Shown: in pieces, positions 3,979 to 19,037 of the stretch | Layout of the letters: the number at the start of each line of letters is the position of its first letter | Numbering within the stretch: the first letter of the stretch is position 1 | Assembly (NCBI GenBank): GCA_014727915.1 | Contig: WJMO01000006.1 | Location: 1-64,000 of the forward strand | Origin: Candidatus Altarchaeales archaeon | Lineage (GTDB): Archaea > Altiarchaeota > Altiarchaeia > IMC4 > SCGC-AAA252-I15 | Direction of reading: 5' to 3' | DNA: 64,000 bases | Translations under genes and position numbers: made by a program | Notes under the pieces: model-generated | Database searches by the model: none | What the model was told of the DNA's origin: nothing | What the model saw: the letters and a program-made list of their open reading frames with translations, nothing else

Positions 3979-5124
3979 ATGGCTTCCAAGCGAGACTACT
4001 ATGAGGTCCTGGGCGTTGACAAGGGCGCGAGCGAAGCCGAGATAAAGAAGGCCTACCGGAAGCTGGCTAAACAGTATCACCCTGATGTGAACAAGGCCCC
4101 CGAGGCTGAGGAGAAGTTCAAGGAAGTGTCCGAAGCATATGAGGTGCTCACCGACCCCACCAAGCGGGCGAACTACGACCAGTACGGGCATGCGGGCGTG
4201 GACTTCGGAAGCGGCGGGTTCCAGTGGCAGGACTTCAGCCGGTTCGGGGACATAGAGGACCTGTTCTCCGGCGGCGACTTCTTCGGCCGGAACATATTCG
4301 ACCTGTTCTTCGGCTCCGGGATGGGCGGGTTCCAACGGAGGAGCGGAGGCGCCACTAGGGGGACCGACATCAGATACGACATAGAACTCAGCCTCCAGGA
4401 GATCTCAGAGGGGACGGAGAGGAAGCTCAACGTTTCCAGGTATGAGAGGTGCAGCGACTGCAACGGCACCGGCAGCAGCAGCGGGAAGCTCAGCACATGC
4501 CCAGTGTGCAAAGGCCGGGGGCAGGAACGCCGCCAGCAGAAGACCCCCTTCGGATACTTTTCGGTCGTCACCAATTGCAGCAGGTGCGGGGGCCGGGGGA
4601 AGGTCGTGGACAAGCCGTGCAACAGATGCCACGGCGACGGCATAGAGAAGGTCCGGAAGGACATAGAGGTAAAGATACCCGCTGGCATAGCCGACGGAAA
4701 CCACCTCCGCATGCGCGGGGAAGGGAACAGCGGAGTCTTCGGCGGGCCCCGGGGGGACCTGTACGTGGTCATACACGAGAAAGACCATCAGTTCTTCACC
4801 CGCCACGGCGACGACCTCCTATGCGAAGTCCCCATAACCTACACCCAAGCCGTCCTAGGCACGGAGATAGAGGTCCCAACCATAAAGGGGAAGGCAACGT
4901 TGAAGATACCAGGGGGGACCCAGAGCCACACCATATTCAGGCTCAAAGGCCAGGGCATACCCCACCTCCGCGGAGGCGGCAAAGGCGACCAACACGTCCG
5001 CGTGACCATCGAAGTGCCCAAGAAACTCAAGAAAAACCAGAGGGAAATCATAGAAAAGCTCGCCGAAATCGAGGACAAGCCAGGCAAAAGCATAATCGAC
5101 AGATTCAAAGACGCCTTCACATGA
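3979..5124 (+). CDS. dnaJ: Co-chaperone DnaJ (Hsp40)
   Basis: DnaJ (381 aa) stimulates the DnaK ATPase and delivers substrates. It is a full type I protein. The J domain is at 6-70 with HPD at 34-36, followed by a Gly/Phe-rich linker (about 70-120). Four zinc-binding CxxCxGxG repeats lie at about 155-222 ([32 protein letters not shown]). The C-terminal peptide-binding domain ends at the normal place. A 52-base gap separates it from dnaK. That gap holds a pyrimidine-rich stretch (CCTTTTTTCT at about 3940) that could end part of the dnaK transcript, so dnaJ may also have its own weak promoter. Confidence 0.96.
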
Positions 5125-5173
5125 ACGAGACTCCCTTTTATTTAACCTTATGATAAGAGACTAACAACCGGAG

Positions 5174-5773
5174 ATGGTCGCTGTAAAATCCAGAGACGGA
5201 GCATATGTGATAATCATATTACTGCTAATCAGTTTTCTATGGTTGTTGAACAGTATCGGGAGCAGTGGGTGGAAGGGAGGGAGTGTGCAAGAGAATACCC
5301 CCGATGAACCGGAGGAACTGGATGTTGTCAGGGTTACAGTGGATGAAAAAGGGGAGATAATAGATGAAACAGATTTTATAGTGAACAATTCATTATTGGA
5401 AAAATACATCGTGGATACAGGTCTTCCTAAGGGCGTTAGAATCAAACCATATGTATCTGTCCTAGATATTAAGGGTGTTGATTTCTTAAATTATGAGTAT
5501 GTAGTCGACGACTACGTTTATCATTTACTGGTTTATTATGGGGGAGACAGATACAAGGAGGTAATAGAATCCGAGATGGATATAGCAGAAAGAGACGATA
5601 CTGGGAAAATTATTAAATCAAAGAATATGCACATAGAACCTCCTTCTTATTTCTGGTCAAATGATGGGAGGATACTCGTCGTTTATTCGGTTAATGACTC
5701 GGAACATCTAGAAATGCTGAAGGATTTCTTCATCGCCAAATTCCCGCCAACAGAGCCGCTGGATTTACAATAG
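5174..5773 (+). CDS. Membrane-anchored protein of unknown function, paralog of 18408-19037
   Basis: This 199-residue protein has one N-terminal membrane helix (about 11-27, IIILLLISFLWLLNSIG) and a hydrophilic domain predicted outside the membrane. I do not recognise a family. It is clearly related to the protein at 18408-19037. Both share the order anchor, acidic linker, LLExY-x-x-D/T-x-LP-x-G-x-R, a middle beta-rich part, and a closing F-x-W...D-x-I-L-x-x-Y-S...D...LK...PTE segment. The two copies bracket the AT-rich island and its glycosyltransferase flank. The gene is AT-rich, unlike dnaJ before it. TTTTATTTAA at about 5135-5144 could be its TATA box. Convergent with the UbiA gene. Confidence 0.6.
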   Translation: MVAVKSRDGAYVIIILLLISFLWLLNSIGSSGWKGGSVQENTPDEPEELDVVRVTVDEKGEIIDETDFIVNNSLLEKYIVDTGLPKGVRIKPYVSVLDIKGVDFLNYEYVVDDYVYHLLVYYGGDRYKEVIESEMDIAERDDTGKIIKSKNMHIEPPSYFWSNDGRILVVYSVNDSEHLEMLKDFFIAKFPPTEPLDLQ

Positions 5774-5794
5774 AGACTGGACTATGCAATAGAT

Positions 5795-6601
5795 TCATAG
5801 GATGTATAGTACGATCATTCCGTAAAAGATCGCAATAATCCTGTAAATTGACCTTAACTTTCTATTTTGGATTTGGTCCCGAGTAATTGGGGGCACATAA
5901 TGCATCAGGGCAAAGCAGAGCAAGTAGGTCACTGCTGTGAAAACCCATGTTATTTTTGAAACAAAAGGCAGGATTGTTGCTATGACAAGGGTCAAGAAAA
6001 ATGATGAGAACACTATCATCTTGAGTAGGTTTAGGGGCAATGAATTTGCAGTCGTCTTGAAACCATTTTTTTCATCGTATTCCAGGTCTTTGAGTTCCTG
6101 AACCAGTTGAAAGGGAACGATTAAAAAGAAAATCAAAGAGGACATTCCAACCACGCCATAGTCAATGGCGCCACCACCAGTGAATATCCCAACAAGGAAT
6201 AGCACAGTAAACAATGAGGAATTAAGGGATAATTCAACTATTGGAACAGTCTTCATGTATAAAGGCGGGCCAGAGTATAGGATGCTGAATATAGTACCAA
6301 TAACTAACACCAGAAACAAACCCTTGGATATGATAAAAGATAAGGACAGAGCAGCCAAGATGGGTAAAAACACGGAAAACAGGGGCAAAAAGGGAATTTT
6401 CTTCCGTATGAATCTCTCAAAGACCAAATTTGAAGAATAACCAAAGGCAAGATATAATGAGGATATTATCGTGCACGAAAATAGCGGCACAATATCGAAT
6501 ATTTTTCCCGTATATGCAAGGCCAAAAAGGCCCAAACCCAGTAGGTGGGTCCAGTCTCCAGCTCTATAGAATCCTAGGATTCTCCTGACATAACCTAACA
6601 T
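5795..6601 (-). CDS. UbiA-type prenyltransferase with degenerate first Asp motif
   Basis: This 268-residue integral membrane protein has about eight or nine hydrophobic helices. It has two UbiA family hallmarks: YSGPPLYMK (109-117, the family's YSxPPxxxK loop) and the second Asp-rich motif D172-L-E-Y-D176-E-K-N-G-F-K-T. UbiA enzymes move prenyl chains onto aromatic rings, or onto geranylgeranylglyceryl phosphate in archaeal lipid synthesis. The first metal-binding motif, normally NDxxDxxxD, reads N58-L-V-F-E62-R-F-I-R66. Asn and one acidic residue remain and the other Asp residues are absent. It may therefore use an unusual substrate or be less active. The context of lipid-type radical SAM enzymes suggests an isoprenoid or membrane-lipid substrate (inference). 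Confidence 0.75.
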   Translation of the reverse strand: MLGYVRRILGFYRAGDWTHLLGLGLFGLAYTGKIFDIVPLFSCTIISSLYLAFGYSSNLVFERFIRKKIPFLPLFSVFLPILAALSLSFIISKGLFLVLVIGTIFSILYSGPPLYMKTVPIVELSLNSSLFTVLFLVGIFTGGGAIDYGVVGMSSLIFFLIVPFQLVQELKDLEYDEKNGFKTTANSLPLNLLKMIVFSSFFLTLVIATILPFVSKITWVFTAVTYLLCFALMHYVPPITRDQIQNRKLRSIYRIIAIFYGMIVLYIL

Positions 6602-6680
6602 CTTGCCTTAGAGAGTAGATTCACTAGTTTGCTAAAATAATACTGAATTACACGCCTAAAATTGAAAGACTGTGGAAAGA

Positions 6681-8348
6681 TCAAAGGCATGCTTCTTTTT
6701 CAAGGTATTTTGTCCGCAGCCAATTTGAGATCTCGAAGGGCATGTATTCTCTAAGACGCTTCAGCCAACCGAGTTTATGCTTGTACAGCATATACTCAAT
6801 ATTATCCTTTGTTAGCAGAGCCTGTTTACTGTATTCTATGAAAAGAAGCTCCGACTCCTTTCGGGATAGTGAGTCCCTAGTATAAGTCACCACACCAGGT
6901 ATGTACGACCTGCCCATCGTATAATACTCCCAAATCCCTTTGTCAAATTCACAAGTGCTTAAAACTTCAAAACCATGCTTAATCGGATCATATGCTATGT
7001 CAGCCCGTATACCAACATTAATCAACTCAAGGGCCATATAATCATATAGGTTCCGGACTTCACTGACCTTAGGTATATTCGAGAGTTCATATTCGATTCC
7101 ATATCCAGGATATCCGACCATGTAAGTTGTTGTAACAGCCATACCCTTCTCCCGGCAGTATTTGAGTATCCGCTTAACATAATCTATCGTCTGCCCCTTC
7201 TGAATATCATCGATAACTTCCTGGTCGAGAGACTCAAGGCCGAATTTCGGCCTTCTGAAACCGGAATCATACAGAAGATCGATCAGTTCTTCATCTGTCT
7301 GGGGTAATCGCATGAACCCGCCCCAGTCGATTTTCAGTCCAGAGTCAATTATCAGCTGGCAAAGTTTTTTAAGCGCTGAAGGATCGCCGTTTAATAAGCT
7401 GTCCCCGGATAAAAACCGGTTAATACCGTATTTCTTCGAGTTTAGAGTTAGTTCATCCAGGACTTTTTCAGGTTCCCGAACCCTGAAGGATTTGAAGAAT
7501 CTGCGTTCATCACAGAACTTGCATCCACCAATGCACCCCCGCGAGATATGAAATGATAGATGACTATATCGGCGCATGTCAATACCTTCAAAGTCGGGAT
7601 AAGGCAAGTCATCGAGGTTTATTGGCTCTCTCGGCCCGGGGGAAAAAATTTCACCATCCCTAATACTTGATGTTCCACGTATGTCTGTGGGGAATGTACC
7701 GCCTTCAATTCCATTGACTATCTCAACAATTGAGTCCTCCCCCTCCCCATACACGATATAGTCCACGTTCTCGAACAGGAAATCCCTATATTTTGAGAAA
7801 ACACCCGACTTTTTGAGGGAATCACGTATGGAGTTGTGAAGAAAATTCATCGGGTAAAATACGCCAATCAACAATTCAGTTACAGGACCCCCCAGTATTA
7901 TCTTGGCTTTCTTGTTGTTCTCCTTTATCGCCTGTGCCAGGTATAATATTATCCCAACCGACTGTGACTGAACTCCAAACCCGATCACATCAGAATCAGA
8001 CAATCTGTCAGCAACAATATTGCATTCGCCCAGTATCGTATTAACCTCTTTTGGAAAGCGAATATGAATGCTTTCCCCGCCTCGATCAACAAAACCAAGC
8101 TCCTGGGCAAATAGTTCGCCGGAAATTAACTCAACCCACTCAAGATATTTTGGAATACCCAGGAGGGGTGATTTCTCCCCAAAATAATCCATAGATAGTA
8201 TGCTATCATATATCAGCTGCTCTTGCCTCTCGAATAATTGTATGGTTGAAGTATGACCTGCATGCTTCAAAGATGCATTAATATAACCAAGGCCAAGGGG
8301 GGTAACGCTGTAGGCCATGGGATTCAAACAAGTGAGCCTGACGTCCAT
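6681..8348 (-). CDS. B12-binding-type radical SAM protein
   Basis: This 555-residue protein has an N-terminal cobalamin-binding-like Rossmann domain. It opens with NPMAYSVTPLGLGYINASLK and continues with DVIGFGVQSQSV and ILGGPVTELL; the classical DxHxxG histidine motif is not present, as in many of this class. A radical SAM TIM barrel follows, with the cluster motif C272-IGG-C276-KF-C279, then a C-terminal helical extension. Enzymes with this architecture methylate unactivated carbons, form rings or cyclise lipids. GrsA and GrsB, which put cyclopentane rings in archaeal tetraethers, belong to the same broad class. The substrate cannot be read from sequence. It lies between the UbiA gene (same strand, 79 bases apart) and the first Tes-like gene, which diverges from it across 57 bases. 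Confidence 0.8.
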   Translation of the reverse strand: MDVRLTCLNPMAYSVTPLGLGYINASLKHAGHTSTIQLFERQEQLIYDSILSMDYFGEKSPLLGIPKYLEWVELISGELFAQELGFVDRGGESIHIRFPKEVNTILGECNIVADRLSDSDVIGFGVQSQSVGIILYLAQAIKENNKKAKIILGGPVTELLIGVFYPMNFLHNSIRDSLKKSGVFSKYRDFLFENVDYIVYGEGEDSIVEIVNGIEGGTFPTDIRGTSSIRDGEIFSPGPREPINLDDLPYPDFEGIDMRRYSHLSFHISRGCIGGCKFCDERRFFKSFRVREPEKVLDELTLNSKKYGINRFLSGDSLLNGDPSALKKLCQLIIDSGLKIDWGGFMRLPQTDEELIDLLYDSGFRRPKFGLESLDQEVIDDIQKGQTIDYVKRILKYCREKGMAVTTTYMVGYPGYGIEYELSNIPKVSEVRNLYDYMALELINVGIRADIAYDPIKHGFEVLSTCEFDKGIWEYYTMGRSYIPGVVTYTRDSLSRKESELLFIEYSKQALLTKDNIEYMLYKHKLGWLKRLREYMPFEISNWLRTKYLEKEACL

Positions 8349-8405
8349 CGTTGAATATTGGAGATAACATTAGATATAGGATATTAAGGTAAATGGGATG
8401 TATTT

Positions 8406-9779
8406 ATGATGAATAGTCTACTATCTGGGAAAATGGTTGGGGGAATCAAACAGATTAAAACTGAAAGCCTGTGTCCAACATGCTTGAAAAAGACGGATGC
8501 AGTGGTGATTGAAGAGGATGACGGGATGATTATCAGGATAACGTGTCCAATCCACGGCACAGTAGATAACCCGCACCTATTCCATGACCCTGAGATCTAC
8601 ACGTCTATGAGGGCTCTTATGGCTGCCAGAGACGATAAATGGGTTCCAGATGCCGCGTTCCATGATGTTATAAACAGATGCAACATGAATTGCCCTCAAT
8701 GTTTTATCCCAAAAGTGCAAAGTCCAGAGACTAAACCAACAATAGGCCAGTTAGAGTCCGAAGCCAAAAGCCATAAAGGGTCCATCATCTATTTATTCGG
8801 TGGTGAACCCACCATGCAAGAGGATTTGACCGAGATCATAGAGTTATTCTCAAAGAGGGGGTATGAGACCTCGTTTTTCACAAACGGGTTGAAAATGGCA
8901 GATATTGAATATGCCGAAAAAATTTCAAGAACAAAACCGATGGTTGTATTATCGATTGACACACAGGATCAGAAACAAGGGCTTGAGATATACGGTGCAG
9001 ACGTTCTTCATGAAAAAATATTCGCTTTAGATAACATTATAAGTTTGAATCTCCCGGTGTTCTTGAACGTTGTGCTAAGAAAAGGCTTGAATGAAAACCA
9101 AATCCAGAAGTTCATTGAACTTTTGAAATCCAAGGATGGGAAGGTGAGGGGAATTTCCTTCTCAGGTTATTGGAATCCATCCGGCACAAAACAGGACGAT
9201 ATTGTCCCGGTTAAAGAGGTCATAGAAAAGATAAAACAGGAGATAGACTGCTCACTTGAGGATTTTATTGACTGCACACTATTCGGGCTATACTTCAGCC
9301 AGTTAATCAGGAAAATCACAGATAGTGGAGGAAGGAGGATATCAGCATGCTATCTCAGGCTATATCTTGTACATTACCACAGCAGACTGACACCGTTAAA
9401 CAGGTATATCAACCTGCCCAAGCTCAATGAAAAATTAAGACAGATATATGATAACTTCCAGGGCACGTTTTTCTCAAGGCATAAGGCAGTGATAGCCACT
9501 GCCATTGCATTTTCCATGAGCATAAAAAAGACAAGCTTCATAGGCATCATAATAAAAAATATCCGCTACTGCACCCCAATAGCTTTTAGTAATCGGCACC
9601 CTGCCACAATGTTGATCCCACGCACATCATCAATAGTAATCACAAGATACTTCGACCTGTCAAATGTTGACCTGGAGTTCATACCATATTGCAGCCTGGG
9701 GGCAATAGAGGAGGGAGGGGTTATGCCTTTTTGTCTGAGGGAGATTATGCGCTCTGCAAAAAGAAGTAGGGAGGGGTAA
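8406..9779 (+). CDS. Tes-like radical SAM protein, paralog A
   Basis: This 457-residue protein is one of four adjacent paralogs. An N-terminal metal-binding knot, C23-PT-C26 with C47-PIH-G, is followed by the radical SAM cluster motif C92-NMN-C96-PQ-C99 and the SAM-binding GGEPT at 132-136. A C-terminal part holds further Cys (C315, C429, C443) and a hydrophobic segment (about 360-385). This order matches the tetraether lipid synthase family (COG1964, M. jannaschii MJ0619). Paralogs B, C and D have a second Cys four residues after the one equivalent to C315; here it is Leu319, so an auxiliary iron-sulfur cluster may be lost or altered. ATGs at 8406 and 8409 are both possible starts, and another in frame at 8433 cannot be excluded. 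Confidence 0.8.
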   Translation: MMNSLLSGKMVGGIKQIKTESLCPTCLKKTDAVVIEEDDGMIIRITCPIHGTVDNPHLFHDPEIYTSMRALMAARDDKWVPDAAFHDVINRCNMNCPQCFIPKVQSPETKPTIGQLESEAKSHKGSIIYLFGGEPTMQEDLTEIIELFSKRGYETSFFTNGLKMADIEYAEKISRTKPMVVLSIDTQDQKQGLEIYGADVLHEKIFALDNIISLNLPVFLNVVLRKGLNENQIQKFIELLKSKDGKVRGISFSGYWNPSGTKQDDIVPVKEVIEKIKQEIDCSLEDFIDCTLFGLYFSQLIRKITDSGGRRISACYLRLYLVHYHSRLTPLNRYINLPKLNEKLRQIYDNFQGTFFSRHKAVIATAIAFSMSIKKTSFIGIIIKNIRYCTPIAFSNRHPATMLIPRTSSIVITRYFDLSNVDLEFIPYCSLGAIEEGGVMPFCLREIMRSAKRSREG

Positions 9780-9799
9780 TACCTGCTGGAACCCATGAC

Positions 9800-11134
9800 C
9801 TACCTAGGACTTATATAGTGCCATCTTTTCATGTCTTCAATACAATACCCGGCTTTGCCTTTTTTCACTTCCCGACATATGTTACAGGTACTCGAGAACT
9901 CAAAATCGACATTTGAAGGGTCCATATATCGTTCGACTGTGATTCCAAAAATATTCTTTGTCGTAGATGTTGAAAGCGGATAGTTATGCCTTAAGTCGTT
10001 TATTAGATTTGGGAGAAGCAGTAGACAGAACATCCTGAAGTCCGGGTTAGAGATGAAAGAACGGACGATTAGAGAGTAGGGAAACCATAGAAAAAATGTG
10101 AGAATCATGCTGTGAGAAGACTTCAATTTGGATCTTAGAAAATCCAGATTTTTAATCAATTCATTCAGATCAATCATCCTGGAGATAGGAACCAGCCTAC
10201 CCCCCCTAACCCAAAAATAGCATCTTAGCTCACATCTAGGCGTTCTTATCCCGCCTTTCCCGGTAATTAAGCGCAGTATCTCGAATGTTCTGTTGCTGAA
10301 GAGAGTGCACCCAAGTATATCCTCCAAAGTTATGTCAGTTGACTCGCTAACCAAATCGACTATGCCATTCTGTAGTATTATCTCCTTTTGTTTTCCCTCA
10401 AGATCCCAAAGAACCTTAAAATTAACAAGCCTCAACCAACCGCTATTTTTTGACCCGTATTCAATAGCTTTAGACACCTGATCCTCGTTAACGCCCTTGA
10501 AAACAATCAAGGATAGCATCGTTGGCATGCCTGAAGCAGCTAGGTTCTCCAGGGCCTTCAGCTTGGAATCTAAGACATCACAGCCATAAAGGCTTAGAGA
10601 TTGCCCACGGTCAAAGCTTAGGAACGAAAGGATTACAAGGTTTAAACCCGCTTCTTTAAGTTCACCCGCATAACCTGGTTCGGAAAATCGTATCCCGTTA
10701 GTGAATATCGCCACCCGCTTACCCTGACCCCTCAATCGCGTTATGATTTCCGGGAGGTCTTCCCGTATCGTGGGCTCACCACCACATAAATAAACCAGCG
10801 ATCCTTTGAAATCCTTGCTCAAATCCAAAATCTCATCTACAGTGAGTTCACCACCGTTCCGAAAACTCTTCGGGACAGCGCAAAACGGACAATCCATGTT
10901 GCAATCCATTGTGACTTTAAGCACTTGCCCGTCAGGGAACACATCATCATCCGTTATCATGTTTTCAGACAGAGCAGCGTATAGTCTGGGGTCCTCGAAG
11001 AAATGGAGCGTTTTGAACGACCCATGTTCTGGACACTCCTGAGAGATGTACATTTTACCGCCCTCATTAAACACTTCTGCCGCCACCCGTTCAAAGCAGA
11101 CAGGACACAAGCTCTCGGTTTTCCTTGAATCCAT
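9800..11134 (-). CDS. Tes-like radical SAM protein, paralog B
   Basis: This 444-residue protein is the only one of the four paralogs on the minus strand. The N-terminal knot is C10-PV-C13 with C34-PEH-G, and the radical SAM motif is C78-NMD-C82-PF-C85. GGEPT follows, then the auxiliary Cys pair in PRCELRC and the C-terminal pair in STCNIC...GYC. A long hydrophobic stretch (MILTFFLWFPYSLIV and on to MFCLLLLPNL) suggests contact with membrane lipid. The start is the ATG at 11134, since the codon just before it is only a GTG and MDSRKTESLCPVC aligns with the other paralogs. It is divergent from paralog C, with 83 bases between the start codons. Reaction unknown; radical chemistry on a lipid or isoprenoid is inferred from the family. 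Confidence 0.8.
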   Translation of the reverse strand: MDSRKTESLCPVCFERVAAEVFNEGGKMYISQECPEHGSFKTLHFFEDPRLYAALSENMITDDDVFPDGQVLKVTMDCNMDCPFCAVPKSFRNGGELTVDEILDLSKDFKGSLVYLCGGEPTIREDLPEIITRLRGQGKRVAIFTNGIRFSEPGYAGELKEAGLNLVILSFLSFDRGQSLSLYGCDVLDSKLKALENLAASGMPTMLSLIVFKGVNEDQVSKAIEYGSKNSGWLRLVNFKVLWDLEGKQKEIILQNGIVDLVSESTDITLEDILGCTLFSNRTFEILRLITGKGGIRTPRCELRCYFWVRGGRLVPISRMIDLNELIKNLDFLRSKLKSSHSMILTFFLWFPYSLIVRSFISNPDFRMFCLLLLPNLINDLRHNYPLSTSTTKNIFGITVERYMDPSNVDFEFSSTCNICREVKKGKAGYCIEDMKRWHYISPR

Positions 11135-11188
11135 CACATTATAGTATTAGAGAGGATACTAATAGTGTAAAAGAAGAAGAGGACAGGG

Positions 11189-11198
11189 TTATAAATTA
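11189..11198 (+). promoter_or_regulatory. TATA box of Tes-like paralogs C and D
   Basis: TTATAAATTA is centred about 25 bases before the ATG at 11218. This predicts a leaderless transcript that covers paralogs C and D, whose reading frames are coupled. Confidence 0.6.
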
Positions 11199-11217
11199 AG
11201 GAGTATATTGGATAAAC

Positions 11218-12567
11218 ATGATCGGGGGAAAGCAGTCTGGGATGAATAAAACGACTAGTCTTTGCCCCGTTTGCCTGGATATTGTGAGTGCTGAGGTCTT
11301 CGAAAAAGACGGTAAGATGACGATGTCCAAGGAATGCAAAATACACGGAGTATTCGAGTCGACACATTTCTGGGAGGACCCCACCATATACAATTTCATG
11401 AAGGAACTGATAGGAGATTCAGAATGTGGAAACCCAGATGGCCTACTGGTAGATGTTAACTGCGAATGCAACATGAACTGCCCATATTGTTGGGTTTCAG
11501 ACCATGCGAAAACTGTGAAACAGACCACGATGGAAGAACTCAAATCGATCATAAGTGTATTCCAAGGATCCTCTATTTACCTGAGCGGCGGAGAACCAAC
11601 CTGTAGAGCAGACCTTCCGGAAATGGTGAAAACAATCAGAGATAACGGTAAGGAACCTGTAATATTCACCAATGGGCTCAAGTTCTCCAACGTGGACTAC
11701 GCATTGTCCATCAAGGAGGCTGGAGCAGGCATGATAATCTTCAACTTCAACAGTTTTGACCGGCGTCAATGTATCAAACTATACGGGGATGACATTTATG
11801 ACATGAAATTCAAAGGATTGAATAACGTCCTCGACATGGGCATACCAGTTTACCTGTATGTGATCCTGAAAAAGGGAGTTAATGAGGACCAGATCAACAG
11901 CGTGCTTGACTTTGCCACTGAACGGAGCCAATACTTGCGGGTTATAGATTTTCAGACCATCTGGGATATCAAGAATGGAGCTGGTGGGGAAGTGCTCACC
12001 CAAACCGGGATTTTAGACCTCTTGAAATCTGAGAGGGGCATTCTATTAGAGGATTTCCTGCAGTCCACTGCCTTCAGCCACTATTTTTTTGAAATATACA
12101 GGAAGGTCTTGGGGAGGGGTGGAAGAAGGTCGCCCAGGTGTGAGCTAAGATGCTATCTTGTGGCTGCAAACAAGTCATTAACGCCCATAACAAAGGTACT
12201 AGACATGGAAAAGCTCAACTACAAGTTGAAACTGTTGAACAGTAGATTAGACAGGTCCGGGCTGCCAAAGATGATTACTTTCTTATTAGGCTTCCCCTAT
12301 GTTTTCCTCATAGGAGAGTTCATAATGAAAAATGAGTTCAGACGCATTGTCATATCAAATGTGCGGAATACCATTACCTCCCTGTTTCAGAAGAAAAGGT
12401 TCCCTGCCTATTCGGCAACTGACATAGTAAGCATCATGCTGGGAAGATTCCATGATAGATTCAACGTAGACCTTGACTTCACAAAAACCTGTACCTTCCA
12501 TGCGGTTTGTAGAGATGGCAAACACGAGTCATTTTGCACGAGAGAGATTATGAGGTCTGGGAAATAA
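11218..12567 (+). CDS. Tes-like radical SAM protein, paralog C
   Basis: This 449-residue protein has the knot C16-PV-C19 with C40-KIH-G, the radical SAM motif C84-NMN-C88-PY-C91, and GGEPT. The auxiliary pair lies in PRCELRCYLV and the C-terminal cluster region reads KTCTFHAVC...SFC. A hydrophobic segment (MITFLLGFPYVFLIGEFIM, about 358-376) lies between the two auxiliary regions, as in B. It is the member most like a complete Tes-type protein by Cys content. The TATA box 25 bases upstream supports the ATG at 11218 over a second ATG 24 bases later. The stop overlaps the start of paralog D (TAATG), which implies coupled translation and perhaps a joint function. Confidence 0.82.
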   Translation: MIGGKQSGMNKTTSLCPVCLDIVSAEVFEKDGKMTMSKECKIHGVFESTHFWEDPTIYNFMKELIGDSECGNPDGLLVDVNCECNMNCPYCWVSDHAKTVKQTTMEELKSIISVFQGSSIYLSGGEPTCRADLPEMVKTIRDNGKEPVIFTNGLKFSNVDYALSIKEAGAGMIIFNFNSFDRRQCIKLYGDDIYDMKFKGLNNVLDMGIPVYLYVILKKGVNEDQINSVLDFATERSQYLRVIDFQTIWDIKNGAGGEVLTQTGILDLLKSERGILLEDFLQSTAFSHYFFEIYRKVLGRGGRRSPRCELRCYLVAANKSLTPITKVLDMEKLNYKLKLLNSRLDRSGLPKMITFLLGFPYVFLIGEFIMKNEFRRIVISNVRNTITSLFQKKRFPAYSATDIVSIMLGRFHDRFNVDLDFTKTCTFHAVCRDGKHESFCTREIMRSGK

Positions 12568-13892
12568 TGGATGAAATCAGGTATAAGACCGAAAGCTTAT
12601 GCCCCATTTGCCTCAGGAAGCTGGAGGCTGAAGTCTACGTGAAAGACGGGACTGTAATCGTGTCAAGAGAATGCGAGGAACATGGGGAATTTGACTGCCT
12701 TCACGCATGGGATGACCCTGAAATATTCAAGAGATTCATGGATATCTCACATAAGCTTGTTGAGAACAGATTCAACGACCTCACAATCGATGTCACAGAC
12801 AGATGCAACATGCGATGTCCATTCTGTTTTAATACGGCAAAGGACGAACCAAGCTTGGATCGCATAATCGAAAAAGCGAAGGCATGGGAGAACGGAAATA
12901 TCGTCCTCTACGGCGGGGAACCAACCATGAGAGACGACCTGCCGGAACTGATAACAGAACTTAAGAGTATGGGATTCGGGGTGATACTGCTCTCAAACGG
13001 ATTGAGGATAGATGAAAAATTAGCAGACAAGCTTGACAACAGCAGATTAGATGGCATAGTTTTACAATTTGATTCCGTGGATGATGACATAAATGAGCGG
13101 ATGAGGGGTATGAGAGTGCTTGAACGAAAGCTGAACGCGATTGAATCCCTAAAAGATGGGAGGATTTGGCTCTCACTTTTTGTGGTGATTATGAAGGACA
13201 CGAATGAAGACCAGATACCAGACATCATAAATCTCGCATGCAAGGAATCCGAGCTGGTTAGGACGGTTTTATTCGCTCCGGTATCGCCAGAGGGAATTGA
13301 GGGGTCTGAGAGAGGACACATCAGGAACAGGGCAATATTCGATAAGATAGGGGAAGCCGGGATTACAAAAGATGATTTCATGGAAAACAGTGAGTTTGAC
13401 ATATCATTAACGAAGTTCCTCTCAAAGATGGGCATCAGAAGGAAGAGCATAACCCTATGTGAAGCATTATGCTATGTCTACCGAGTAAAAGACCATTTCA
13501 TACCATTGAATCATTTGGTGGATTTAAAAGCCATAACGAATGCATTAGATGAGAGCGACTCTGCTATGTCGCTTGCCATAAAATTGTTGAAGTATAATGT
13601 GAAGGCCGATTTACGGCTTCTGCCGGCGATAATGAGAGTATCCGCTAGAATCATGAGAACCCTGGTCTTCAGGGTAAAGTTTGACGACAACATCCCCGGC
13701 ATGGTAGGCATACTAGTCAATCCGACACAGACCAGATATAATGCAGACTACAATTTCATAAGAACATGCAACCTATACTCGGACACCAGAGAGGGGATAA
13801 CCACATACTGTGAGAACAACATATTCTCGACCGGCAAGAAGAACAGTGAAAAACTAGAGAAGAGCCATTTTTACCAGATGAAGACAGGATAA
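12567..13892 (+). CDS. Tes-like radical SAM protein, paralog D
   Basis: This 441-residue protein starts at the ATG that overlaps the stop of paralog C (TAATG). A longer reading would need a TTG inside paralog C and adds residues without matches in the paralogs. The knot is C12-PI-C15 with C36-EEH-G, and the radical SAM motif is C80-NMR-C84-PF-C87, followed by GGEPT. The auxiliary pair reads TLCEALC, and the C-terminal pair is in RTCNLYS...TTYC. This is the most divergent of the four. Its segment between the auxiliary regions is less hydrophobic and more amphipathic (about residues 340-380) than in B and C. It probably acts on a related but different substrate, or pairs with paralog C (inference). 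Confidence 0.8.
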   Translation: MDEIRYKTESLCPICLRKLEAEVYVKDGTVIVSRECEEHGEFDCLHAWDDPEIFKRFMDISHKLVENRFNDLTIDVTDRCNMRCPFCFNTAKDEPSLDRIIEKAKAWENGNIVLYGGEPTMRDDLPELITELKSMGFGVILLSNGLRIDEKLADKLDNSRLDGIVLQFDSVDDDINERMRGMRVLERKLNAIESLKDGRIWLSLFVVIMKDTNEDQIPDIINLACKESELVRTVLFAPVSPEGIEGSERGHIRNRAIFDKIGEAGITKDDFMENSEFDISLTKFLSKMGIRRKSITLCEALCYVYRVKDHFIPLNHLVDLKAITNALDESDSAMSLAIKLLKYNVKADLRLLPAIMRVSARIMRTLVFRVKFDDNIPGMVGILVNPTQTRYNADYNFIRTCNLYSDTREGITTYCENNIFSTGKKNSEKLEKSHFYQMKTG

Positions 13893-13946
13893 AACAGGGA
13901 TAAAATCGTGAGAAACGTAGATTATTAATGAAGTTCATACTTTATT

Positions 13947-16340
13947 ATGTATTTTTTCCGAGACAGCAACGAGTTGAGGATATTCCTTTCCGCATTCGTA
14001 ATATACTTATTCTTCATACATTGGACAGGATGGAACGAGAACTCAAGATTAGATCTGAGCAGGAGTATCGTCGAGGAAGGCAGGTTACATATCGACACCT
14101 ATGCCTCGAATACAGGTGATCGGGCATATTACAATGGCCACTATTACAGCGATAAACCACCGGGACTATCGATAGTCTCTACTCCAGCATATCTCATATT
14201 AGATTCAATCCCCAGACCCAAAAACTATGAGGATGAAGGAAATAGCGGGGAGATAATACTATTGAAAGACGAGACAGGGTCGCCCACTGTTACTTCAGAT
14301 ATTGAACCGGGCAAAAAAACACGCTTGTCGACCATAATCCTTACAATCCTCGCATCATCATTGCCTGCAGCGTCTAACGTTATCTTACTTTTCAGGATAC
14401 TCGGCAAATTTGTCCAAAATGAGAGGATACGGAGTTTAGTTGTTTTAACATATGGCCTGGGAACCCTGGCCTTCCCATACGCACTGATGTTCCTCCCGTA
14501 CAGCATAGGCATATTCATCACATTATTAGCCTTTAGCATGGGGTGGAAAGGGGACGTATCCCCCGTAAAAGGTTGCATCATTGGTCTACTGTTATCAGTG
14601 ACGTTGAGCTTTGATTATATTTTTTTCCCGATAATCATCCCGTCAACCATATACCTATTTTCCAGGATGGGCAAAGCAAAGAAGTGTTATATCCTTGGTT
14701 TGATAACAGGATTATTGCCCATAATAGCATACAATTACCTGATATTCGGACAATTAACCTTCTTTTATAAACACATGGACAGTGATGTTTGGGTATGGGA
14801 TAACCCGGCATTGGAAGAGGGAGCGCTTCCAGTAACCAACCTCTGGATTCCCATCCAAGTATTATTCTACCCGTACAGGGGACTATTCTTCTACTATCCT
14901 GTTTTATTATTTTCGGTTGTGGGGTTGGCCCGTATGAGAAAGAGATTCAGAGGTGAATTCCATATGATAACATCGATGTTCCTCTTGATCTTGGGTGTTT
15001 ATTCAACCATGCTGTATACATGGCATGGGCATATGTTCGGGCCCAGGTATTTCACACCATTAATGCCGTTTCTTATGATACCTACCGCATATGCACTATC
15101 AGAAAAGAATAAAAGAATATTCTTATTGTTGATGTTCACTTCGATATCAGTGAACATACTTGGTTTGCAGAATTTTGAGAATATTATCACAGACGATTTC
15201 AGACAGGTTTCAGCAGAACACGTTTACTCTCTGAAAGGTTTCACATACAATCCTTTATTTGACCACTATCTCCCATTAACCGCGGATAACGGTCCGAGGA
15301 GCAGGCTTTTCGAAAACATCATAGAATATGGCGGACAGTTTGACATCCGTGACATCCCCTATTCTAAGGGCGTGCTCAGCTCCCCCTATCTCCGCAGAGA
15401 GTACATTCCAGTAGCCACAATACCGGGAATGGGTTTCTTCGTTCTGAGGGTGGAATTCCTATGCCTTATACCCTTAACCGTGATATTGGCGCTCATCTGG
15501 AGGAAGGAACTATCCAGACATCTTACGAGAGATAAGTCCCTAATAGTCCTGGCCGTAGTAACCCTGGTATTTCTACTTGCCTTCGTGAGGGTCAAAGACT
15601 CCCTGTTCACCAACGGATGGTATCCGAAGGAAGGGGGTGAAAACGGGTTTTTCAGATTCACCGGGGAAGAAGCAGAGGTGCTTGTCTATAACACAGGAGG
15701 AATGAACAGGATAAACATCATGTTACAAGCTTGGAGCCCGCAGAAGGGCAGAGACCTAGAGATACTCCTGAACAATGAACTGCTTGGAACATACAATATC
15801 TTACCCCAGGGTTCAACGGTTGGAACAACACTTATAAAACTCAAACCGGGAACGAACAAGTTCACTCTTAGATCAACCAGTGGATGCGACAACCCCCCCG
15901 AAGTCATGGCAAACGGAAAGACGATGATATGCTACAGCTTCGGGTTCAGCAACATAAGCTTCAAAAGACAGGACAACCCACTTTTTAGGGAGAACTGGTA
16001 CATGGAGGAAGAGGACGAACATGGGACATTCAAGTTCATGAGCCAGAACGCAACACTAAACATGCGCTCAACAGCTGGAGAAGCTGTTGAGTTGGCTTTC
16101 ACATCCTTCAGCTTTCACAAAAAGAGAGAACTACATGTGTATGTGAACGGCGAGGACATTGGAACAATCGAGAATGATGGTGGGGGATACAGTATGAACA
16201 GGTTCAAAGCACACCTCACAGAGGGTGATAATGAGATCCTCTTCCATTCAGTCCCCGGGTGCGACATACCTTCGGAGGTTGGGGAGTGGGATGACACGCG
16301 GTGCCTGAGCTTCGGGTTCAGGGACATAAAGATTGAGTAA
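13947..16340 (+). CDS. GT-C family membrane glycosyltransferase with two C-terminal beta-sandwich modules
   Basis: This 797-residue protein begins with about ten or more membrane helices. The first extracytoplasmic loop carries YYNGHYYSDKPPG (about 66-78), which has the acidic/KPPG pattern seen in archaeal relatives of protein mannosyltransferases and ArnT. Such enzymes move sugars from polyprenyl phosphates on the outer face of the membrane. From about residue 555 two similar beta-rich modules follow. Each opens with a WY-x-x-E...F-x-F-x-x-x-x-A motif, contains a V-N-G/N-N-E turn, and ends with a Cys pair and SFGF. They resemble carbohydrate-binding jelly-roll domains. The same type of module stands at the N-terminus of the GT-C protein at 46904. 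This is the last large gene of the AT-rich island. Confidence 0.75.
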   Translation: MYFFRDSNELRIFLSAFVIYLFFIHWTGWNENSRLDLSRSIVEEGRLHIDTYASNTGDRAYYNGHYYSDKPPGLSIVSTPAYLILDSIPRPKNYEDEGNSGEIILLKDETGSPTVTSDIEPGKKTRLSTIILTILASSLPAASNVILLFRILGKFVQNERIRSLVVLTYGLGTLAFPYALMFLPYSIGIFITLLAFSMGWKGDVSPVKGCIIGLLLSVTLSFDYIFFPIIIPSTIYLFSRMGKAKKCYILGLITGLLPIIAYNYLIFGQLTFFYKHMDSDVWVWDNPALEEGALPVTNLWIPIQVLFYPYRGLFFYYPVLLFSVVGLARMRKRFRGEFHMITSMFLLILGVYSTMLYTWHGHMFGPRYFTPLMPFLMIPTAYALSEKNKRIFLLLMFTSISVNILGLQNFENIITDDFRQVSAEHVYSLKGFTYNPLFDHYLPLTADNGPRSRLFENIIEYGGQFDIRDIPYSKGVLSSPYLRREYIPVATIPGMGFFVLRVEFLCLIPLTVILALIWRKELSRHLTRDKSLIVLAVVTLVFLLAFVRVKDSLFTNGWYPKEGGENGFFRFTGEEAEVLVYNTGGMNRINIMLQAWSPQKGRDLEILLNNELLGTYNILPQGSTVGTTLIKLKPGTNKFTLRSTSGCDNPPEVMANGKTMICYSFGFSNISFKRQDNPLFRENWYMEEEDEHGTFKFMSQNATLNMRSTAGEAVELAFTSFSFHKKRELHVYVNGEDIGTIENDGGGYSMNRFKAHLTEGDNEILFHSVPGCDIPSEVGEWDDTRCLSFGFRDIKIE

Positions 16341-16342
16341 AA

Positions 16343-17026
16343 CTATTTTTTCTCTGCTTTGATGAAGGTCTGGGCTCCGAAGAGAAGCCATAGGAATCTG
16401 AGTTTCAGGTATATTCTCATTAGGAGGGGGGATTGGGGGAGTGTGCTCTGGGTCGTGTATGGTAGGAAACGGTCTATCGACTCTGTGACCGTGTAACCTT
16501 GGGTTTCCAGCAGGTCTTTGAGGGCTCGGTCGTCCAGTGGTGTTATGTGGTCGAAGAACATCCAGTAGTCCTGTGAGCAGAACCTGATGTTGGGCTGCAG
16601 TATCAGCAGGGAGCCTCCCGGCCTGAGCAGCCTCTTAGCCTCCAGCAGGGCTTTCACTATCTCGTCCCGGGTGAGGTGCTCGAGGACGTTGCTGATGAAC
16701 ACGACATCGACCGAGCCGCCATCCAAATCCCTGATGTCGGAAGCCTTGGAATGCAAGAACTCAACGTCGTCGGACAGGTGCTGCCTGGACCGCTCATCCT
16801 TGTCGACGGCGATCTTCCGGCGGGCGGTTATGTTGTTTATGAACGCGCCAGCCCCTGAGCCGACGTCCAACACCGTGGAATCGGCAGGCACATATCCCTG
16901 GAGGAAGTCCCTGCATAGAACCTTCCAGATCCCATGCTTTGACTGGAAGTTATGGTCGCAGGACAACCCAGCAACATCATCAGCCATCCTCATTCTTACT
17001 ATATATTTTCCAGATAAAAAATCCAT
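16343..17026 (-). CDS. Class I SAM-dependent methyltransferase
   Basis: A protein of up to 227 residues with a Rossmann methyltransferase core. Motif I is VLDVGSGAGAF, the acidic end of beta 2 is DKDERS, and motif IV is DVVFISNVLEHL. LLRPGGSLLILQPN follows, as in Methyltransf_11 proteins. The substrate is unknown. Placement between two GT-C glycosyltransferases suggests sugar or glycolipid methylation (inference). The ATG at 17026 would leave only nine bases to the divergent neighbour, so the ATGs at 16993 or 16987 are also plausible starts. It is convergent with, and two bases from, the preceding glycosyltransferase gene. Composition is GC-richer than the island. Confidence 0.8.
   Translation of the reverse strand: MDFLSGKYIVRMRMADDVAGLSCDHNFQSKHGIWKVLCRDFLQGYVPADSTVLDVGSGAGAFINNITARRKIAVDKDERSRQHLSDDVEFLHSKASDIRDLDGGSVDVVFISNVLEHLTRDEIVKALLEAKRLLRPGGSLLILQPNIRFCSQDYWMFFDHITPLDDRALKDLLETQGYTVTESIDRFLPYTTQSTLPQSPLLMRIYLKLRFLWLLFGAQTFIKAEKK
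17000..17008 (+). promoter_or_regulatory. TATA box for the GT-C gene at 17036
   Basis: TATATATTT is centred about 32 bases before the ATG at 17036, consistent with a very short leader. GGAG directly before the ATG is too close to act as a Shine-Dalgarno site. Confidence 0.5.
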
Positions 17027-17035
17027 TAGTAGGAG

Positions 17036-18424
17036 ATGAAAAAAGGGTTTAACACAGTCAGATGGTTGAGTGCGGCAATGGCCGTCCTGTTCATCTTAGA
17101 GGTCCTGTTCTTCCACCAGCTCGTATACTCGGAGGCTGAGCAGCTGGGAGAGGGGGACAGAGAGTTCCTTGATGAGATGTCCATAATGTACGGGTTCCCG
17201 GTTGACGGAATATACCACGTGGACGAACCCTACTGGATGCACGGAACATACGCCTACCAACTCCTGTTCAAGGAGAAGAGCCTGCTACACCGGGACTGGC
17301 AGCACCCCCACATGCTAGACCAGCCGCAACTGTCAAGGTTGATACTTGGATTGGGGCTGGATCTCAGGGGAGGGGATGTAGGGGAGAGCATAGCAGGACT
17401 AATGAACTGGAAGAGCATCGCATACCATAACTTCTGGGTGAAGAACGGCATCGAAAACAAGGAGAGGGACTATGAGATAGTGTTGGACAGGGAGTTGGAG
17501 GAATACATGGGATACCTCATGGGACTGTCTGGCGGCGGGAAAATGACATCGTTCACCCGGAGGGACTACCGGATCGCGCGGGAAACCGCCTATTTCTTCG
17601 CGGTACTCTCCGCCCTGACAATCATGGCCATAAGCTACAGAGTATACCCCCACCCGCTGACGTCGATTATCGCAGGCCAGGTTTTCCTAGCCAACGGGGT
17701 CGCCGTGCCCGCATTCGAACGGGTTCTGTCCGAGAGCATATGCACTTTCTTCACCCTAACAACACTGGCCTTGGTTATGAAACTGGGCGAATCCAGGAGT
17801 AAGAGAAAATGGGCTTTCTTGGCTGGGGTCTCGCTGGGCATGGCCTTGAGCACCAAGTTCACGACAGCCTACATGATACCCGTAGCTGCGGTGGCGCTGC
17901 TCCTGGACAGGAAGACCGAGAAGAGAGAGTTGGTGGGAGCCGCCACTATACTGGCCCTATCAGCGACCATATCATTCCTGTTGTTGAACCCTTCATTGTA
18001 CCCTGACCCTGTGGGTAACACGGCCTGGATGGTGAGCCACAGGGCTAAGATGATGGGCATACAATCGGGGGTGCAGCCCGAAGCAATAAGGACGCTGGAT
18101 GAGAGGGTTCGGCTGATAATCGGTAAGGGCGTGCTCATGGACAGCAGCGAATCAATGACCATCCAGGGAATGCACATCATACTGTTCATATGGGGTTTGA
18201 GACACATTTACGCGAAAGCCAGGGTTGAATTTGCGTCGGGGCGCATGGGCAGGCACGCGGTCGCATCCCTGTTCATAGCATCGACCTTCATCGTTGTGGG
18301 AGCCAGCATACACATGGACTGGCAGAGATACTATATCCCGTTCATGCTATGCTCCGTAATAGCGTTCTCAGCGGGGCTTGGGCAGGCGATAAAGGACGTA
18401 TTTGAAGATGGAAAACGAGGATAG
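17036..18424 (+). CDS. GT-C family membrane glycosyltransferase
   Basis: This 462-residue integral membrane protein has an N-terminal helix (about 8-28). A large first loop contains DEPYWMHGTYAYQLLF and DQPQLSRLILG, followed by about eight helices. The acidic D-E-P-x-W-x-x-G motif in loop 1 is the usual catalytic signature of protein O-mannosyltransferase-like GT-C enzymes. The likely donor is a polyprenyl-phosphate sugar. A polyprenyl-phosphate sugar synthase-like GT2 is encoded at 48980-49678. The end overlaps the start of the membrane-anchored protein at 18408 by 17 bases, so the two are probably translated together. Confidence 0.75.
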   Translation: MKKGFNTVRWLSAAMAVLFILEVLFFHQLVYSEAEQLGEGDREFLDEMSIMYGFPVDGIYHVDEPYWMHGTYAYQLLFKEKSLLHRDWQHPHMLDQPQLSRLILGLGLDLRGGDVGESIAGLMNWKSIAYHNFWVKNGIENKERDYEIVLDRELEEYMGYLMGLSGGGKMTSFTRRDYRIARETAYFFAVLSALTIMAISYRVYPHPLTSIIAGQVFLANGVAVPAFERVLSESICTFFTLTTLALVMKLGESRSKRKWAFLAGVSLGMALSTKFTTAYMIPVAAVALLLDRKTEKRELVGAATILALSATISFLLLNPSLYPDPVGNTAWMVSHRAKMMGIQSGVQPEAIRTLDERVRLIIGKGVLMDSSESMTIQGMHIILFIWGLRHIYAKARVEFASGRMGRHAVASLFIASTFIVVGASIHMDWQRYYIPFMLCSVIAFSAGLGQAIKDVFEDGKRG

Positions 18425-19037
18425 TGAATGTAAGATGGGGGACTATGAGGTCAGGCTAAGCCCTGACAGGCCAAAGAGGGGGTTGGTGATCGTCGCAGCG
18501 CTGGCATTGGCCATCGCAGTGTGGGGCGTCCACAACCACATTTACAAGATCCCGGAGGGGGAGCGGCCAGATTTCGCATCCCCTGGAATGACCGTGGTGG
18601 AGCAGTACAACTACGACGGCGGGCGGCTAGAGTCCAAGTCATACAGGGAGGTCAGCACCTCGCTCCTCGAGTCATACTTCAGGACGGACGACCTCCCCCA
18701 GGGATTCCGCCAGGTGAAGGAGTTCATCGAGGTGAGGTACGGGGTCGAGAGCATAGTATCGGAGTTCGACAAAGACGGAAGAGCATACTTTTTCTCGGTG
18801 CAGGAGTCGAGCAAGGGATACAGGAACAACATAAGGATAGGATACGATATAGCCTCAAGCGAGCATGGAGACAGCGTACTATTGTTGAGGTCTAAGGACG
18901 GGGGTGAAACATCCTTCCTCTGGACGCATGAGGACAAGATACTAAGGCTGTATTCTAAGGAGGACACCATAGACCTGGTAGTGCTGAAAGAGCACATGGT
19001 AGAAGAGCACCAGCCAACAGAGAGCACCAGCATATGA
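18408..19037 (+). CDS. Membrane-anchored protein of unknown function, paralog of 5174-5773
   Basis: This 209-residue protein starts at the ATG at 18408 (an in-frame TTG lies six bases before it). After a short basic N-terminus there is one membrane helix (about 26-42). The remaining domain matches the protein at 5174-5773 in order and motifs, for example LLESYFRTDDLPQGFR against LLEKYIVDTGLPKGVR. A closing FLWTHEDKILRLYS...LK...PTE matches the end of the other copy. I do not recognise a known family. It overlaps the GT-C gene before it and is GC-rich, while the other copy is AT-rich, so the duplication is old or one copy arrived with the island. Confidence 0.6.
   Translation: MENEDSECKMGDYEVRLSPDRPKRGLVIVAALALAIAVWGVHNHIYKIPEGERPDFASPGMTVVEQYNYDGGRLESKSYREVSTSLLESYFRTDDLPQGFRQVKEFIEVRYGVESIVSEFDKDGRAYFFSVQESSKGYRNNIRIGYDIASSEHGDSVLLLRSKDGGETSFLWTHEDKILRLYSKEDTIDLVVLKEHMVEEHQPTESTSI

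Follow-up and report, generated by a model that had tools for sequence, protein, structure and literature searches.

The 64,000-nucleotide window analysed here, from contig WJMO01000006.1 of a Candidatus Altarchaeales archaeon (genome of 1.81 Mb, 90.6% complete), contains an 11.2-kb stretch of low GC content (positions 5174-16340, in the numbering of the window) that, judging from its composition, is a laterally acquired biosynthetic island. At its heart lie four adjacent radical S-adenosylmethionine (SAM) proteins related to the tetraether lipid synthase Tes, which by sequence belong to a third branch of the Tes/TrsS radical SAM family (COG1964, 'HMPTM'). The explanation that best accounts for our results as a whole, and to which we grant somewhat less than an even chance, is that of an acquired island in which a third Tes-type branch produces an altered lipid part of a glycolipid or of a lipid-linked glycan.

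A first-pass annotation had delimited a locus at 5795-13892 with a UbiA-like gene, a B12-type radical SAM gene and four adjacent Tes-like paralogues of 441-457 residues, and the six genes were found where it had placed them. The four paralogues are intact, and are encoded at 8406-9779 (plus strand, 457 amino acids), 9800-11137 (minus strand, 445 amino acids), 11218-12567 (plus strand, 449 amino acids) and 12534-13892 (plus strand, 452 amino acids, or 441 if the start codon is the ATG at 12567, which forms TAATG with the stop of paralogue 3). All four carry the CPxC...CxxHG, CNMxCPxC and GGEPT motifs and the C-terminal cysteines, and match the rubredoxin-like knot PF23545 with 42-61 bits (cut-off 27) and the radical SAM domain PF04055 with 65-90 bits. 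Pairwise identities of about 26-40% mark them as true homologues rather than chance resemblances, and the hydrophobic segments that had been claimed for two of them are indeed seen in paralogues 2 and 3, within the bridging helices. The best NCBIfam match of all four is Tes (NF045702), at 128-178 bits against a curated cut-off of 450, with TrsS (NF045646) nearly equal at 126-175 bits against 490; in a sequence search of the PDB, Tes is the best match by far (E 1e-37 for paralogue 3). Over the whole genome no locus exceeds the 450-bit cut-off of the Tes profile, and no full-length member of the branch was found beyond these four.

The fold agrees with the sequence. AlphaFold models of paralogue 3 (predicted local distance difference test, pLDDT, 87; predicted template modelling score, pTM, 0.89) and paralogue 4 (pLDDT 83, pTM 0.85, weak at 344-376) match Tes over their length with template modelling (TM) scores of 0.82 and 0.81 respectively, the next different enzymes reaching about 0.4, and both have the Tes fold including the bridging helices, which are weakly predicted in paralogue 4. 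The alignments used for the models contained Tes relatives, favouring a Tes fold, but the E value of 1e-37 already supports that fold by itself. The relationship to Tes proposed earlier is therefore sustained on both counts. Scores for TrsS nearly as high as those for Tes could still mean that the enzymes act on a peptide, a pterin or another non-lipid small molecule, as TrsS may do, and the Tes protein MJ0619 has itself reportedly been assigned as a pterin-methyltransferase; the bridging helices and hydrophobic stretches of a Tes-like fold, and the membrane glycosyltransferase and UbiA-like genes next door, make such substrates quite improbable.

The paralogues differ from Tes in the residues that they have lost. 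We aligned them with the Tes of Methanocaldococcus jannaschii (whose numbering is used here), the Tes of relatives and TrsS-like proteins, taking the metal ligands from the literature (PMC9433317). The rubredoxin-like site (C9/C12/C33/H36) and the CX3CX2C cysteines of the radical SAM cluster (C98/C102/C105) are kept in all four, as are C338, C455 and C470, whose role in the C-terminal cluster (C-cluster) is assigned from conservation. Conversely, the N-terminal [4Fe-4S] segment (C73, C77, C80 and a His; hereafter N-cluster) is wholly absent from the four paralogues, from their counterpart in a sister genus (genome G002) and from that of a bacterial contig (L056), whereas it is present in nearly all aligned Tes, the exceptions being L018 and the bacterial L067. 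Met439 and Tyr459 are lost in all four (T/E/G/N and A/R/A/S in the respective columns); nearly all the canonical Tes aligned keep both residues together with the N-cluster domain, and the two have been described as invariant across 1000 archaeal Tes (PMC9433317). The 268-275 loop is also altered, none of the paralogues having one of the FQPVS type and only paralogue 3 having Q at column 268. The branch is characterised by a CExxCY motif whose first residue is the first C-cluster cysteine, paralogue 1 (CYLRLY) being the exception; the second cysteine of the motif, C312 in paralogue 3, may act in place of Met439 as the fourth ligand of the cluster in the other three paralogues. The G002 protein and the full-length L056 protein show this same pattern of kept and lost residues. 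Since Tes retains activity when it carries M439A or Y459F/L (PMC9433317), the loss of Met439 and Tyr459 does not exclude C-C coupling.

Phylogeny sets the branch apart as well. The four paralogues, G002 and the bacterial proteins form one clade (support 99/98) outside Tes and TrsS. The three groups join at a near three-way fork in which Tes is held apart with only 60/89, a value that leaves some room for an origin deep within Tes; when two bacterial Tes that nest inside Tes are included, the branch and Tes make up one side of a 95/86 split. Forcing the branch together with the M. jannaschii Tes and the Tes of two genomes of the same family is rejected (approximately unbiased test, p-AU 0.0007), and this test and the missing residues led us to reject a simple duplication of Tes. 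Within the new clade branches are long and the fine order is unsure. In the best tree the bacterial sequences nest among the archaeal copies, which would place the duplications before the transfer, although the nesting is not significant: grouping the five archaeal copies to the exclusion of the bacterial ones gives a p-AU of 0.09. The profile search proposed as a check thus confirms the earlier reading in part: Tes is the best match of the paralogues, but with 128-178 bits where 450 would be required, in a separate clade and without the residues that define Tes.

The genes at 5174-16340 have a GC content at third codon positions (GC3) of 0.42-0.55, versus 0.70-0.82 in the genes outside. The island comprises a 199-residue membrane-anchored protein, the UbiA-like and B12-type radical SAM genes, the four Tes-like genes and a 797-residue glycosyltransferase-like gene. 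Its two flanks, with GrpE-DnaK-DnaJ on one side and the genes from 16343 on the other, consist of host-like genes of high GC3 and belong to the same 536-kb contig, so it is not a binning artefact. The first 464 kb of the contig contain two other low-GC stretches, at about 114-124 and 188-200 kb, hence low GC is a general mark of acquired or surface-related DNA rather than a peculiarity of the Tes-like locus; these two stretches carry large frames resembling secreted or surface proteins. Low GC, long branches and a degenerate UbiA motif might also be taken as signs of a decaying or non-functional group of transferred genes, a very improbable state for a locus in which every frame is intact and none of the four paralogues has lost a radical SAM, rubredoxin or C-cluster cysteine.

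The branch is rare in the genomes sampled. It was found in two of 394 archaeal genomes, that of the window with its four copies and G002, a sister genus of the same family, with one full copy and one cut by the contig end; a wide score gap separates its full-length members from canonical Tes. Among 386 genomes around the bacterial carrier, it was present only in that one metagenome-assembled genome (MAG). Neither archaeal carrier has a canonical Tes, which exceeds the cut-off in 12 of the 31 genomes searched for it, and this absence, with the shared fold, would be expected if the paralogues were the tetraether synthases of the organism, fast-evolving replacements of Tes that still make glycerol dialkyl glycerol tetraether (GDGT) or macrocyclic archaeol. 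We consider this improbable. Both Tes and the branch are lacking in 17 of the 31 genomes, and the two archaeal MAGs are 91% and 70% complete, so that not finding Tes says little; none of the four paralogues has the N-cluster domain, Met439 or Tyr459; a bacterial MAG carries the branch too; and one reaction does not need four copies. Even among members of one order canonical Tes is unevenly distributed: 10 of 28 relatives (G001-G028) have it over the cut-off, none of them with the new branch.

The glycosyltransferase-like gene of the island (13947-16340, plus strand, GC3 0.53) encodes a multi-spanning membrane protein of 797 amino acids with a repeated C-terminal extramembrane domain, distantly like the putative glycosyltransferases LA_3751/LA_3752 (NF047440, 43.9 bits, below the cut-off of 200). 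Among 41 genomes its homologues are confined to the genome of the window and G002, plus one weak hit. In G002 a homologue (39%) is directly followed by a Tes-like gene (41% to paralogue 3), next after which, on the opposite strand, comes a B12-type radical SAM gene; a second copy lies beside a CapK/PaaK-like AMP ligase and a B12-type radical SAM gene. Just beyond the island, a SAM methyltransferase of host GC (16343-17026, minus strand; PF08241 52 bits, GC3 0.70) precedes a PMT/ArnT-like membrane glycosyltransferase (17036-18424, plus strand; PF02366 34.7 bits). At the other end, the island begins with the 199-residue gene (5174-5773, plus strand; one N-terminal membrane segment, GC 0.398, GC3 0.42), which is paralogous to 18402-19037 (30% over 132 residues, E 6e-12). 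This membrane-anchored pair flanks the Tes-like genes, the former within the low-GC island and the latter outside it.

The UbiA assignment is upheld by a match to PF01040 of 40.9 bits (Pfam cut-off 34.2) for the gene at 5795-6601 (minus strand), whose product shares the membrane fold and the second Asp motif of UbiA prenyltransferases. When aligned to the other UbiA of the genome, which looks like a digeranylgeranylglyceryl phosphate (DGGGP) synthase, it keeps motif II (DxxxD; DLEYDEKNGFKTT), but motif I (NDxxDxxxD) reads NLVFERFIR instead of NDYFDYDID, and it may therefore not be an active prenyltransferase. Its only clear orthologue is in G002 (36%), with motif I lost likewise, where it is followed by a homologue (33%) of the 17036-18424 gene; another UbiA-like gene of G002 overlaps a B12-type radical SAM gene. 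On contig 166 of G002 (L198, 520-7263), the UbiA orthologue and a membrane glycosyltransferase come after genes that resemble, by eye, methanofuran biosynthesis, and other contigs of this genome (L199, L202 and L203) hold more clusters of radical SAM, B12-type radical SAM, UbiA-like and glycosyltransferase genes.

For the 555-residue product of 6681-8348 (minus strand), the B12-type radical SAM label holds for the radical SAM part, with a strong match to PF04055 (71 bits), while the B12-binding domain PF02310 falls slightly under its cut-off (31.6 bits versus 32.1). The protein resembles BchE, HpnJ and C-methyltransferases of ribosomally synthesised and post-translationally modified peptides (RiPPs), and is without a close family: its best NCBIfam match is BchE (106 bits, far under the cut-off of that model), and models of B12-type radical SAM enzymes of lipid pathways, the group to which GrsA and GrsB also belong, follow with 82 bits for the ladderane model TIGR04072 and 59 bits for HpnJ, all far below their cut-offs.

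The bacterial contig L056 combines UbiA-like, full Tes-like, short Tes-like, aminotransferase class IV and B12-type radical SAM genes. Its UbiA-like protein is a distant relative of that of the window, and a UbiA-like gene accompanies the branch in three genomes. The GC content of L056 (0.40) is slightly under that of ten other contigs of the same bin (0.41-0.46), which makes a bacterial origin likely, if not proven. Contig L092, which repeats the L056 gene order over the part covered, is probably a strain variant rather than a second bacterial locus. The recurrence of the gene set in related genomes, which the first-pass annotation had proposed as a check, is therefore borne out only in part: the Tes-like/glycosyltransferase pair and the special UbiA recur, in a single sister genus, and UbiA-like, Tes-like and B12-type radical SAM genes recur in one bacterial MAG, but the B12-type radical SAM genes are not orthologous between loci.

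As to vehicles of transfer, viral carriage was rejected, the viral contigs scanned having yielded no more than distant, partial matches (26-28%), and the plasmid matches proved to be TrsS-like proteins beside methyltransferases rather than members of the branch. Two phage contigs of IMG/VR (L132, about 4911-6005, and L133, about 4878-6038) encode short radical SAM proteins with a rubredoxin-like CPxC...CPxHG directly before CNMACP, among genes resembling virion or tail genes. In the plasmids L111-L114 (Halorarius, Mycolicibacterium, Salinirubellus and Haloarcula), each with a TrsS-like gene followed by a methyltransferase, the TrsS-like genes are mostly near thioredoxin, disulfide-oxidoreductase or peroxiredoxin-type genes, a hint of a redox-linked role for the TrsS branch.

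In Tes, the 5'-deoxyadenosyl radical abstracts a hydrogen from a terminal phytanyl carbon and a sulfur of the C-terminal cluster captures the resulting radical, a second hydrogen abstraction then leading to the C-C bond (PMC9433317). Each enzyme of the island would likewise generate a 5'-deoxyadenosyl radical, abstract hydrogen from a long hydrophobic chain at an unactivated carbon and then, in the way that Tes uses a C-S bond, park the substrate radical on its C-terminal cluster. The parked radical would then join a second carbon, or the sulfur would stay behind, so that the outcome could be a C-C bond, a C-S bond or another product. Together with the B12-type radical SAM enzyme, the four paralogues would alter, in successive steps or in alternative ways, one lipid-linked molecule, to which the neighbouring membrane glycosyltransferase would attach a sugar or whose sugar it would use. 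As for the UbiA-like protein, the loss of the first catalytic Asp motif suggests that it may serve to bind or carry the isoprenoid. The linkage to glycosyltransferase and UbiA-like genes is what points to a lipid-linked sugar or glycolipid as the product, and modification of its lipid part is the most likely task of the radical enzymes. Lying on both strands, the genes do not form one operon.

Several points weigh against this proposal. The substrate is not deducible from sequence, and without Met439 and Tyr459 the chemistry need not be C-C coupling. With about 22-31% identity among the B12-type radical SAM proteins of the window, G002 and L056, none is specifically conserved, and linkage rests on few cases, two archaeal genomes (G002 being fragmented into 320 contigs) and one bacterial MAG. 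Moreover, where radical SAM enzymes are encoded in glycan loci, their substrates are often sugars. A serious rival, though we hold it to be somewhat unlikely, is that the enzymes modify the sugars of a surface glycan (by dehydration, epimerisation, decarboxylation or methylation) and not a lipid. The glycosyltransferase-like genes within the island (13947-16340) and at its flank (17036-18424) would suit such a function, as would the glycosyltransferase-4-like gene and the CapK/PaaK-like AMP ligase of the G002 loci, and the sugar- or nucleoside-acting BlsE and DesII appear among the lower fold matches. However, the latter share only the radical SAM core, at about 0.4, whereas the whole fold with its bridging and C-terminal domains is that of Tes (TM 0.8), and a UbiA-like gene goes with the branch in three genomes. 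Extending the lipid proposal further, one could imagine a mobile gene set of an archaeal family and a bacterium devoted to a new class of radical-modified isoprenoid glycolipids (cross-linked, sulfur-bearing or branched), made by enzymes of the third Tes-type branch that work without N-cluster and with an all-cysteine C-cluster, an idea that we put forward as a rather doubtful one.

Tes uses an Fe-S cluster in coupling two unactivated sp3 carbons, and a branch that keeps the reaction centre while dropping the N-cluster domain and the labile Met offers a natural test of which parts of Tes are needed. Four copies side by side, in turn, point to a pathway. Homologues of Tes are known from many archaea and bacteria, with up to two per methanogen genome (PMC8941075), and some are of unknown role (PMC9433317); neither the new branch nor a locus with four copies was found described in the searchable papers, a coverage that leaves out most subscription literature and preprints. 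Surveys that, like published ones, rely on loose definitions of a Tes homologue (e-value and identity limits of 20-30%) could misread such proteins as evidence of tetraether lipids, and the residues lost in the branch (N-cluster, Met439 and Tyr459) would separate it from true Tes.

Compared with known systems, the paralogues are closest to Tes, or GDGT-MAS (MJ0619, PDB 7TOL/7TOM), with which they share the rubredoxin-like site, CX3CX2C, GGEPT, the three C-cluster cysteines and the fold (TM 0.81-0.82). They depart from it in the absence of the N-terminal [4Fe-4S] domain, Met439, Tyr459 and an FQPVS-type 268-275 loop, in forming a separate clade and in the presence of four copies in one island. 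The (seleno)protein TrsS is of the same family, with a rubredoxin-like N-terminus and scores of 126-175 bits, but the N-cluster is present in TrsS-like proteins, most of which also have Met439 and Q268, and those on plasmids adjoin a methyltransferase. Gms, the glycerol monoalkyl glycerol tetraether (GMGT) synthase, is another radical SAM enzyme that makes C-C bonds on archaeal lipids; unlike the paralogues, it has a SPASM domain and six helices at the N-terminus and falls in a subgroup other than that of Tes (PMC11186832), and, as we read that description, without a rubredoxin-like site.

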